From IMG/VR virus record IMGVR_UViG_3300018411_000050, positions 1 to 36,614 of that record: DNA of 36,614 nt; one strand, 5' to 3'. Positions within the stretch are counted from its first letter, which is position 1. Each line of letters opens with the position of its first letter. The translations under genes were made by a program, and so were the position numbers. The DNA is from a virus. This document shows positions 14,031 to 17,670 of this stretch, piece by piece. Below the pieces are notes generated by a model. That model ran no database searches. It was not told the DNA's origin and saw only the letters and a program-made list of their open reading frames with translations.

Positions 14031-14975
14031 ATGTTACAAGAATTTAGCACCACATATAAACCATTCAAATATCCACAGTTCATGGAGTACGCTGTAGCTC
14101 ACGAAAAAATCCATTGGATTGAGGGTGAGATTGAATTGCAGGATGACGTTGCTCAGTGGAACACTGGTGTACTTGATCAGATTGAAAAGGACTATGTTCT
14201 TCAAATCATGCGATTGTTTACGCAGACAGATTGCCAAGTTGGTCAAAACTACTGTGACCTGTTTATTCCAGTGTTCAAGAACAATGAAGCCCGTTGCATG
14301 CTTCTTGCTTTTGCAGCTCGTGAAGGTATCCACCAACGTGCATACGCATTGTTCACTGATACCATCGGTTTGCCAGAGAAAATCTACTCAGAGTTTCTTA
14401 AGTTTGATTCAATGGCAAATAAGATTTCCATGATGCAAAGCAACGATGTGTCAACAGATGAAGGCATTGCCCTCAGTTTGGCTCAAACAGTTTGCAACGA
14501 AGGTATGTCACTGTTCAGCAGTTTTGTGATGCTACTCAACTTTCAGCGTTTTGGAAAGATGAAGGGCTTGTGCAAGATTACTGAGTGGAGCATCCGAGAC
14601 GAAACTCAGCACGTACTTGGAATGTCTGAGTTGTTCAAGACGTTCTGCAAGGAGAATCCAGATGTACTCACTGATGCATTCAAGCAAAAAGTTTATGAAA
14701 TGTATCGTATTGCTGTTGACCTTGAAGATGTATTCATCGACGATGCCTTTGCAAAAGGCGCCCCCGAAGGACTCACTATTCATGGTATGAAGCAATACAT
14801 TCGCTTTGTTGCAAATCGTCGTTTGCAGCAAATTGGTTTCAAAGAGAATTGGCCAGGTTTGGAAAATCCATACCCTTGGTTAGAATGGATTTTGGCTGAA
14901 GGTCAATCTAATTTCTTTGAAACGAAGGTTAGCGAATACTCCAAAGGTGGCATGACGGGCGACTGGGTTTATTGA
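14031..14975 (+). CDS. nrdB: Class Ia ribonucleotide reductase, small subunit
   Basis: This radical-generating ferritin-like subunit is 314 aa. Metal ligands and the radical tyrosine are readable: Glu98-x2-His101-x3-Tyr105 (REGIHQRAY), Glu157 (VCNEGMSL), and Glu191 with His194 (DETQH). An N-terminal carboxylate region (IEGEIELQDD) precedes them. AAGGAGAACCT gives a strong start. It is the last gene of the left-hand metabolism block. The stop codon lies in the loop of a small perfect inverted repeat (CTGGGT at 14963-14968 with ACCCAG at 14975-14980). After it, base composition rises sharply and no gene follows for 500 bp. Confidence 0.96.
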   Translation: MLQEFSTTYKPFKYPQFMEYAVAHEKIHWIEGEIELQDDVAQWNTGVLDQIEKDYVLQIMRLFTQTDCQVGQNYCDLFIPVFKNNEARCMLLAFAAREGIHQRAYALFTDTIGLPEKIYSEFLKFDSMANKISMMQSNDVSTDEGIALSLAQTVCNEGMSLFSSFVMLLNFQRFGKMKGLCKITEWSIRDETQHVLGMSELFKTFCKENPDVLTDAFKQKVYEMYRIAVDLEDVFIDDAFAKGAPEGLTIHGMKQYIRFVANRRLQQIGFKENWPGLENPYPWLEWILAEGQSNFFETKVSEYSKGGMTGDWVY

Positions 14976-15088
14976 CCCAGCGGCACCAACCTGCTCGCTG
15001 GCGAGGCGTCGTGGCACTACCCGCTACCATTGTGGCCTGAACAGCCTAACGCCTCACAGCGGCCCTATTTAGTGGCTTGCCAACACTA

Positions 15089-15155
15089 CTGTATGGCCAT
15101 ACAGCACTGTTCATCCGTCCAGCCTGTATGGCTAAACAGGTGTATGAATGCACAG
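15089..15155. promoter_or_regulatory. Tandem LexA/SOS-box-like operator array (four sites)
   Basis: Four 16-bp sites lie in series: CTGTATGGCCATACAG (15089-15104, a perfect palindrome), CTGTTCATCCGTCCAG (15107-15122), CTGTATGGCTAAACAG (15124-15139) and GTGTATGAATGCACAG (15140-15155). The first and third match CTGT-N8-ACAG exactly; the other two match 7 of 8 fixed bases. This is the LexA box pattern of Gammaproteobacteria such as E. coli and Pseudomonas. The last site ends one base before the -35 hexamer of the promoter. Binding by host LexA or by a phage regulator with similar specificity would control that promoter. No phage repressor gene is in the window. Confidence 0.72.
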
Positions 15156-15156
15156 C

Positions 15157-15184
15157 TTGACGGCTTTTTGGGCAAGCATATAAT
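15157..15184 (+). promoter_or_regulatory. Sigma-70 promoter ahead of packaging/structural genes
   Basis: TTGACG (15157-15162, 5 of 6 consensus) and a perfect TATAAT (15179-15184) are separated by 16 bp. Transcription would begin near 15191-15193 and run toward the zinc-ribbon, terminase and structural genes with a leader of about 285 nt. An inverted repeat GCTTG/CAAGC (15155-15159 and 15173-15177) spans the -35 and spacer. It is the only clear sigma-70 promoter I found. The adjacent operator-like array suggests it is regulated. Confidence 0.78.
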
Positions 15185-15335
15185 GCCTTTAGCACGCGCA
15201 GCGGCCCCCGGCTGGGGTCAGCCAACAAGAAACAAGACAAACCAACAAAGACAAAGAAGAATCGAAGATTCAAGTTAGAAACATTGTTACACCTCACTCC
15301 TGTATTAATTCCCAAATCTAGTTTGTAATAGCTCA

Positions 15336-15360
15336 AGCCGCATGGCTTTCCTAGCCGGAA
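15336..15360 (+). promoter_or_regulatory. Back-to-back small hairpins in the late leader
   Basis: AGCC-GCAT-GGCT (15336-15347) is followed without a gap by TTCC-TAGCC-GGAA (15348-15360). These two adjacent stem-loops would lie in the 5' leader of the transcript from the promoter at 15157-15184. No T-tract follows, so they are not a terminator. They may be structural or processing signals; stems of only 4 bp keep confidence low. Confidence 0.3.
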
Positions 15361-15385
15361 GGGCAGAAGCGGGAATGAGGTAAGA

Positions 15386-15408
15386 GCGAGAGCGGAGCAA
15401 GGCGAGAG
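15386..15408. repeat. GCGAGAG direct repeat in purine-rich tract
   Basis: GCGAGAG occurs at 15386-15392 and 15402-15408 within a G/A-rich stretch upstream of the terminase genes. Short direct repeats near terminase can mark packaging sites, but nothing here proves that. Confidence 0.35.
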
Positions 15409-15442
15409 TTTAGCTCGAAGCACATAACATGTTTCAATTTCC

Positions 15443-15455
15443 GAGTCTTCGACTC
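15443..15455 (+). promoter_or_regulatory. Hairpin just upstream of the zinc-ribbon gene's ribosome binding site
   Basis: GAGTC-TTC-GACTC forms a perfect 5-bp stem ending about 9 bp before AAGGAG. It is followed by AATTATT rather than a T-run, so it is more likely a leader structure influencing translation or RNA stability than a strong terminator. Confidence 0.4.
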
Positions 15456-15475
15456 AATTATTAAGGAGAACCAAA

Positions 15476-15670
15476 ATGAGTAAAGGTAGTCACGATTGCC
15501 GCAAGCATTGTCGCGGTTGTGGCCACATTGTTGATTTAGTAGCTGGCGAATGCCCAGTATGTGAATATGTCCATTATGTGGATGAAAAGAAAAACGATGT
15601 AGAGCCACAAATGACAAATGAAGAATTTAACCATTTGTATTTGATTGAATTTAAGAAGCCAGAAGTATGA
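15476..15670 (+). CDS. Small zinc-ribbon protein upstream of terminase
   Basis: This 64-aa protein has four cysteines in two pairs: CRGC (about residues 12-15) and CPVC (about 26-29), plus nearby His and Cys residues, forming a likely zinc ribbon. The C-terminal half is acidic. AAGGAGAACCAAA precedes its ATG. It overlaps the terminase start by 4 bp (ATGA), so it is co-translated with it. It is the first gene downstream of the regulated promoter. It is too small and unlike known small terminase subunits for me to call it TerS, although a DNA-contact role is possible. Confidence 0.7.
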   Translation: MSKGSHDCRKHCRGCGHIVDLVAGECPVCEYVHYVDEKKNDVEPQMTNEEFNHLYLIEFKKPEV

Positions 15671-17670
15671 GTGCCATCCCAATTGATGAACAGCTTGATG
15701 GCTACATTGCCAACCTGCTTACACAATACTATGGCGACCTACTAAAGGTTAGTAGAAGTCGTGGAATACCATTGACACTACCGCAGTTGCGTAAATATGT
15801 ATCAGAAAATGAATTTATTGTTGAACAATACGATAAAGCCATTTGCAGTGAGATTGAAGGTCAAGGCCTTGAAACAAACGCTGTAATCAAAGCACTTCAA
15901 GAAGCACAACTAGCAGCACTGCGAAGCGCCGACCACAAGAACAACACAGTTTACAGTTCTGAGATTAAGAAAATTATCACAGAGGGTAAGGTTGAACTTG
16001 ATAGCAACGGCGATGTTGCTGTTGTTCGTGTAGCATTAAAGAAAACATCATTAGCACAAGCCATTATCAACAATCCGCTTGAAGTGAATCTCGACGAGAT
16101 AAACAATGAGGATTGCACAGAGGCTCGCAACATTCTGATGGCTAGCTTCGAAACTTTTAGTAAGTGGGCTTTTGAATTGCAGATGGGATTCAAATTCCAG
16201 ATGCAAGATTTCCACAGTATCATTTTCGATGTATGTCAAGATATTGTCGATGGTAAACGTGATAGAGTAATTGTTACAATTCCACCACGACACTCCAAGA
16301 CACAGATTCTAAGTATCTTTCTTCCACTATACAGCTTTTGTCACAACGCTGGTTCGCACAACATTATCACTTCTTATGCTGATGACGTTGTTGCTGAAAG
16401 TAGTGGTTACATTCGCACCATTATGCTTAATGAACTTTTCATGAAAGTGTTTCCTGCATTGAAGATTGATGCGAGTAAACGATCGTTGGAACGTTGGGGT
16501 ACAACTAAAGGTGGCGTGCTTCACGCTGTTCCTTCTGGTGGTAAACTAACTGGTAAAGGTGCTGGCAGTTTGACACGAGTTTATTCTGGTTGCTTTGTAG
16601 TGGATGACATTATCAAGCCAAAGGATGCGTATTCAAACACTGTACGATCTGAGATTAACGATCGTTATGACAACACATTTATGTCTCGTTTGGCAAATGA
16701 TGGTGTTGTACAGAATGATGAAGGTGAACAAGTAAAATGTGCCCGCACTCCAATGTGCATCATTATGCAGCGTGTACACGATGAAGACCTTGTGGGGTAT
16801 CTACTTCGTGGTAACTCAAGTGATCGTTATGATTGGTTGAACATTCCTGCAATCATTGAGCCGGGTGTTGGCAGTAAAGATTGGTATGACAAGATTATTG
16901 AGAAGCAAGCCTATACTCATGCGAACCCTGTTATTTACAACTTGAAACGTAAAGAAGCAAAGTCTGCATTGTGGCCTTCTCGTAAAAGTTTGGAAAGCCT
17001 TGAGGCAATGAAGGTTGCTTCACCTTACACATTTAACAGTCAATACATGGGTGATCCAACTGCACAAGGCACTGGTCTTGTACAAGAAGCTTGGTGGCAG
17101 GAATATCTTGAACTTGATAAGTCACAAGTTATTCGTACATTTATGACTGCTGATACTGCATCGACAAAGATGGATTATTCAGATTATTCTGTTGTGTGTT
17201 ATTGGGCAGTAATGAGAAACAACGACCTCTACCTTGCAGACATTATGCTTGGCAAGTTTGAGACACCTGAATTGAAAATTGAGTTAATTAAGTTCTGGAA
17301 TAAACACAACAAGCTAGACCTTGGTTATCCCTGTATGCTGCCTACAGCATTGTACATGGAAGATAAAAGTTCTGGACAATTCCTTAACCAACAATTTACT
17401 CGTGATGGGGATGTTCGTGTATTGCCTGTACCTAAGGACAAAAGTTCTGGTGACAAGGTTGCGCGCTTCCTTAACACCATTCCGTACTTTGCACAAGGTA
17501 GAATATGGTTTCCAAGTGAGCATGTACATAAGTCACACGTTATGCGTGAGATTCTTGGCATGACTGGCTTAGGCAGTTCAACTGGCCATGACGACGTTGT
17601 TGATAACGTAAGTGATGCAGTTGTTATTCAATATAGTGGAAGTTCGGCTAACTATGAAAGTTGGGTTTAA
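15667..17670 (+). CDS. terL: Terminase large subunit with long N-terminal extension
   Basis: This packaging ATPase-nuclease is 667 aa, longer than most (about 450-550). ATPase motifs are a Walker A variant PPRHSKTQ at 206-213 and Walker B VVDD at 311-314. The RNase H-like nuclease shows Asp496 in TADTASTKMDYSDYS and HDD at 641-643 (GHDDVVD), with an intermediate acidic site near MEDKSSGQ. Residues 1-190 precede the ATPase core and are mostly helical, with no motif I recognise. No small terminase gene is evident next to it, so this extension might carry DNA-recognition functions. It overlaps the zinc-ribbon gene by 4 bp. Confidence 0.95.
   Translation: MSAIPIDEQLDGYIANLLTQYYGDLLKVSRSRGIPLTLPQLRKYVSENEFIVEQYDKAICSEIEGQGLETNAVIKALQEAQLAALRSADHKNNTVYSSEIKKIITEGKVELDSNGDVAVVRVALKKTSLAQAIINNPLEVNLDEINNEDCTEARNILMASFETFSKWAFELQMGFKFQMQDFHSIIFDVCQDIVDGKRDRVIVTIPPRHSKTQILSIFLPLYSFCHNAGSHNIITSYADDVVAESSGYIRTIMLNELFMKVFPALKIDASKRSLERWGTTKGGVLHAVPSGGKLTGKGAGSLTRVYSGCFVVDDIIKPKDAYSNTVRSEINDRYDNTFMSRLANDGVVQNDEGEQVKCARTPMCIIMQRVHDEDLVGYLLRGNSSDRYDWLNIPAIIEPGVGSKDWYDKIIEKQAYTHANPVIYNLKRKEAKSALWPSRKSLESLEAMKVASPYTFNSQYMGDPTAQGTGLVQEAWWQEYLELDKSQVIRTFMTADTASTKMDYSDYSVVCYWAVMRNNDLYLADIMLGKFETPELKIELIKFWNKHNKLDLGYPCMLPTALYMEDKSSGQFLNQQFTRDGDVRVLPVPKDKSSGDKVARFLNTIPYFAQGRIWFPSEHVHKSHVMREILGMTGLGSSTGHDDVVDNVSDAVVIQYSGSSANYESWV

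Follow-up and report, generated by a model that had tools for sequence, protein, structure and literature searches.

How are the packaging and structural genes of a Chaseviridae-like phage switched on when the DNA just before them carries four palindromes resembling LexA boxes, set directly against a sigma-70-like promoter? The window, by which we mean the whole stretch of DNA analysed (36,614 nt), is a 36.6-kb fragment from such a phage. Its large terminase subunit (TerL) is 67% identical over 99% of its length to that of Aeromonas phage pAh6-C and up to 88% identical to TerLs of IMG/VR contigs, and terminase and gene order both place it with the Chaseviridae; primase/helicase, DNA polymerase, ligase, kinase and nrd genes precede terL. 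The locus is laid out as follows.

14031..14975, + strand: nrdB, ribonucleotide reductase small subunit, last of the upstream metabolic genes
14976..15475, + strand: non-coding gap of 500 bp holding the array, the promoter and a leader of ~285 nt
15089..15104, + strand: box 1, CTGTATGGCCATACAG, 8/8 and a perfect palindrome, the strongest LexA-type site (TACTGTATGGCCATACAGCA)
15107..15122, + strand: box 2, CTGTTCATCCGTCCAG, 7/8, weak
15124..15139, + strand: box 3, CTGTATGGCTAAACAG, 8/8, borderline strength
15140..15155, + strand: box 4, GTGTATGAATGCACAG, 7/8, weak, ending one base before the -35 hexamer
15157..15184, + strand: sigma-70-like promoter TTGACG-N16-TATAAT, 11/12 match, predicted start near 15191
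15157..15162 and 15179..15184, + strand: the promoter hexamers TTGACG and TATAAT, with a 16-bp spacer
15476..15670, + strand: 64-aa ORF, first gene past the promoter, whose zinc-finger-like matches are all sub-threshold
15667..17670, + strand: terL, heading the packaging and structural genes

The four abutting 16-bp boxes of the CTGT-N8-ACAG type (15089-15155) lie at the positions given in a preliminary description of this DNA, two of them exact and two matching 7 of 8 bases. The window has no excess of single sites of this type (13 observed, 21 expected); more than two non-overlapping sites within 67 bp occurred in none of 300 Markov-1 simulated windows. When all window positions were ranked with a LexA matrix built on 17 sites of E. 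coli (the host of this phage may have another box), boxes 1, 3, 2 and 4 took ranks 1 to 4, with 20.3, 13.4, 11.5 and 10.8 bits, respectively. By this measure the array matches the gammaproteobacterial LexA operator consensus above chance, including at positions outside CTGT/ACAG. The training sites score 13.7-24.6, a range that includes box 1; boxes 2 and 4 fall below every one of them. The earlier wording of four LexA-like boxes thus holds as regards their rank and is generous as regards their strength, since the boxes are unequal and only box 1 is strong.

Besides the adjoining promoter, the two strands of the window contain just one other 11/12 sigma-70 match. The hexamers and spacing reported earlier, like their place ahead of the packaging and structural genes, stand as described. 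Taking +1 as 15191, the boxes would be centred at -43.5 (box 4), -59.5, -76.5 and -94.5. All end upstream of the -35 hexamer at 15157, none overlaps either hexamer, and box 4 read as a 20-bp site touches just the first base of the -35; the overlap with the core promoter that marks a LexA operator is therefore absent here. Because all boxes lie upstream of both hexamers, activation fits the geometry as well as repression does, and the good -35 is a mild argument for repression. At other arrays (see below) sigma-70 matches are not enriched (7.73 against 7.74 in shuffled sequence).

The remainder of the gap gave few other signals. Two GC-rich hairpins follow nrdB at 14976-15062 (CCAGCG...CGCTGG and GAGGCGT...ACGCCTC); neither has a T-run, and an intrinsic terminator after nrdB was rejected. 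A protein-coding reading of the gap was also rejected, because its ORFs are short and a near-identical contig (L008) has indels there. Rfam, tRNA and tmRNA scans found no match, and similarity searches with the gap gave short weak matches only among phages and none among plasmids.

The preliminary description had called for a scan of related phages for conservation of the boxes. The array is kept in a single relative, contig L008, which is ~97-98% identical to the window; there box 1 has CTGG in place of CTGT and scores 19.1, the other three boxes and the two hexamers are identical, and the promoter spacer has one change. The gap differs from that of L008 at 4 of 500 aligned positions, whereas 4.8% of third codon positions are changed (Fisher p = 3e-6). 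The 64-aa ORF after the gap has 0 changes in 195, however, and this unchanged neighbour weakens the argument for conservation of the gap itself; a low-divergence patch from recent recombination or exchange may be the source of the similarity. Other relatives have no array. Upstream of terL in six Chaseviridae isolates (Mangalitsa, EaPF9, VPs20, Myduc, Spp001 and phiEcoM-GJ1) we found scattered one-mismatch sites and no array, pAh6-C has zero perfect sites, and none of eight other named relatives read carries an array. In L043, which was found as an nrdB relative, no terL adjoins nrdB within the stretch read.

In five further relatives (L001-L005) the place of the array is occupied by a gene for a single-subunit RNA polymerase of ~600 aa, a feature of the setting that the preliminary description, right about the promoter ahead of late genes, had missed. 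Three of the corresponding contigs (G001, G002 and G005, from L001, L002 and L005) are Chaseviridae-like and of near-complete length (53-57 kb), and each encodes two single-subunit RNA polymerases: one of 632-673 aa lies early, and the second (~600 aa) lies immediately ahead of the terL region. No large single-subunit RNA polymerase was found in the 36.6-kb window fragment or in L008. Perfect boxes are absent from G002-G005, and G001 has one, located elsewhere. Since the array stands at the locus of the relatives' second, T7-like RNA polymerase, late transcription in the window phage may have shifted to a host promoter.

Similar arrays recur in unrelated phages. Tandem CTGT-N8-ACAG pairs are present in at least 120 viral contigs, compared with 25 for the control palindrome GTCT-N8-AGAC and 54 for GTGT-N8-ACAC. 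Runs of three perfect boxes in tandem were found in 20 viral contigs, a few of them as coding repeats. Among the matches listed, 54 of 125 array loci are accompanied, within 3 kb, by a TerL homologue transcribed away from the array, compared with 0 of 25 (p = 5e-6) and 12 of 54 (p = 0.011) loci of the two controls, respectively; TerLs were detected with profiles from self-chosen seeds, which miss distant TerLs in all sets. These 54 terL-linked loci (again among the matches listed) fall into 28 TerL clusters at 90% and 6 at 25% identity. Arrays lie inside ORFs at 8 of the 125 loci listed, against 50 of 79 control loci. At positions outside the search pattern the CTGT set reads TACTGTATAT/ATATACAGTA, i.e. 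the LexA consensus, and the E. coli matrix gives those unsearched positions 3.67, whereas random bases get -6.26 and 11 solitary sites at the same loci get -5.04. The position before terL is not LexA-specific, given that GTGT-N8-ACAC arrays are found there as well; these twelve loci carry tandem palindromes of the GTGTC-N6-GACAC type, whose inner bases differ from those of the CTGT set. A scan for arrays spaced like boxes 2-4 of the window returned the contig of L008 and one unrelated phage (contigs L347 and L349), in which a likely small terminase gene and TerL lie downstream of the array, at a distance of ~300 bp. The exact sequence of box 1, used as a query against viral contigs, gave nine unrelated solitary palindromes and was uninformative.

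Two other kinds of locus surfaced in these searches. At four loci (L026, L031, L036 and L038) arrays of CTGTC...GACAG palindromes (CTGTCAGAATAGACAG type), a different sequence type, lie in a frame of ~380 aa. At four loci in genomes of Alcaligenaceae and related betaproteobacteria (L321, L330, L331 and L336), three tandem CTGT-N8-ACAG boxes lie near the start of an acetolactate-synthase-like gene, which is not an obvious SOS gene.

The locus had been described as belonging to a phage with no visible lysogeny genes, and we find no integrase, S24 or LexA DNA-binding-domain (LexA-DBD) gene in the window, G001, G002 or G005. Twenty environmental records with arrays, 21-202 kb long and in many cases fragments, have no S24 peptidase and no tyrosine integrase, in a screen limited to S24, tyrosine integrase, LexA-DBD and RNA polymerase. 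Array records derived from isolates mostly do have integrases. In 19 environmental records checked, the majority of perfect sites lie at the array.

What might bind these sites, if not host LexA? A regulator encoded by the phage, perhaps a LexA-DBD-only protein like gp6 of phage GIL01, could bind the array and activate the late promoter from upstream, with host LexA uninvolved or a mere competitor; we think this doubtful, though a real possibility. Such proteins do exist beside arrays: by Pfam, array records G022, G027 and G028 encode LexA-DBD-only proteins ~1-1.5 kb downstream of the array, and in phages of two groups proteins of this kind adjoin terL, with PF01726 E-values of 1.7e-11, 2.7e-9 and 1.5e-5. 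A cluster of 11 loci has similar products of 74-116 aa overlapping or abutting terL, and all three members scanned match PF01726. These three have no protease domain, and the cluster is possibly a family of gp6-like regulators. Geometry is agreeable too, every box being upstream of the -35 and the predicted centre of box 4 coinciding with the -43.5 at which gp6, a truncated LexA homologue, activates the GIL01 late promoter (PMC6182141). Moreover, some array phages have Pelagibacter and Roseobacter phages as their nearest named TerL relatives. The alphaproteobacterial LexA box differs, and a LexA of the CTGT type is not expected in such hosts. Against a phage regulator, PF01726 has no match in the window, L008, G001, G002 or G005, and ten small window ORFs have no DNA-binding-domain match above cut-off, although a regulator could be encoded in the ~17 kb of this phage that lie outside the window fragment. 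A good -35 is also unusual for a promoter that depends on an activator, and the consensus of the boxes is that of host-type LexA. The Chaseviridae have gammaproteobacterial hosts (PMC12842549).

Might the sites serve something other than transcriptional control? Arrays preceding likely terminase genes across many lineages, together with tandem palindromes of other sequence in the same position, would be explained if the array were a packaging (pac/cos) or replication site, bound for example by the small terminase. We consider this improbable, since the products encoded before terL vary by lineage (TerS, Sf6-type TerS, M15 peptidase, LexA-DBD) while a LexA-like consensus is retained, linear Chaseviridae records such as 4HA13 and Mangalitsa have terL in mid-record, and the window array abuts a near-consensus promoter. 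More improbable still is an RNA or DNA structure element, in which the palindromes would be hairpins of a structured leader or intergenic region and not a protein operator. The region 14970-15200 folds somewhat better than shuffled sequence (z = -2.13), and box 1 could pair with box 3; but the sole change inside the array of L008 (CTGG for CTGT) leaves box 1 no longer self-complementary yet with a good LexA score, the array is upstream of the promoter, and no Rfam family matches.

We therefore return to LexA itself. That the array is a LexA-family operator controlling the late (packaging and structural) operon, with host LexA the leading candidate binder, is our preferred reading, to which we give an even chance. 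In favour of a LexA-family operator are the clustering beyond chance, the first four matrix ranks, the terL-linked recurrence and the GIL01 precedent; against it are the weakness of boxes 2 and 4, the lack of core overlap, the GTGT arrays and the named relatives that have no array. Under this model a LexA-family protein, host LexA being first in line, would bind the strong box 1, and the weaker abutting boxes would be filled cooperatively up to the edge of the -35, so that the promoter would be held low early in infection. RecA-dependent self-cleavage of LexA during phage replication or DNA damage would then lower LexA and open the operon, and a regulated host promoter would have taken over late transcription from a phage polymerase.

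That similar arrays precede packaging genes in many unrelated phages with no detectable integration genes suggests, as far as sequence comparison can, a shared late-gene switch. We tentatively propose, with rather more doubt than the preferred reading itself, that these arrays mark a widespread and apparently undescribed class of phages that have no detectable integrase or repressor and keep the late operon under tandem LexA-type operators, with late genes timed either by the SOS state of the host or by a LexA DNA-binding domain that the phage has captured; here the array would replace a phage RNA polymerase gene in place. If this is true, seemingly obligately lytic phages time their late genes by the DNA-damage state of the host, which would blur the line between lytic and temperate control. 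It would also define a class of late promoters testable with purified LexA and a reporter, offer a case in which the former site of a phage polymerase gene is taken by a regulated host promoter, and provide a lead on late transcription in the Chaseviridae, whose promoters are described as unidentified (PMC12842549).

Three known systems invite comparison. At the late promoter P3 of GIL01, tandem LexA boxes are repressed by LexA-gp7 (PMC6182141), so that both systems have tandem LexA-type boxes at a late-gene promoter and, if our reading is right, LexA-family control of the lytic programme; the LexA-DBD-only protein of GIL01 likewise has counterparts in some array-bearing phages here. GIL01 differs: it is a small tectivirus, temperate, whose Gram-positive host (Bacillus) has a different LexA box, and it needs gp7 and gp6, whereas the window is a fragment of a Chaseviridae-like tailed phage with gamma-type boxes and no gp6- or gp7-like gene found in it. 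In alphaproteobacterial phages, clusters of CtrA sites, for which binding and regulation were established by experiment, are linked to 'lytic deferment' (PMC9437464); there too, sites for a host master regulator are gathered in one intergenic region in several lineages, but the regulator is the cell-cycle protein CtrA, whereas the sites here are of LexA type, stand before packaging genes and are known from sequence. The Chaseviridae themselves (pAh6-C, phiEcoM-GJ1 and 4HA13) share the homologous terminase and the overall gene order (PMC12842549, PMC9699118), and differ in that the six isolates examined have no array upstream of terL. GIL01 and the CtrA clusters are the nearest precedents in the open-access literature searched, and an earlier description may exist elsewhere. 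Making no claim of being first, we regard the array in the window as a probable variant of known LexA-type late-gene control.
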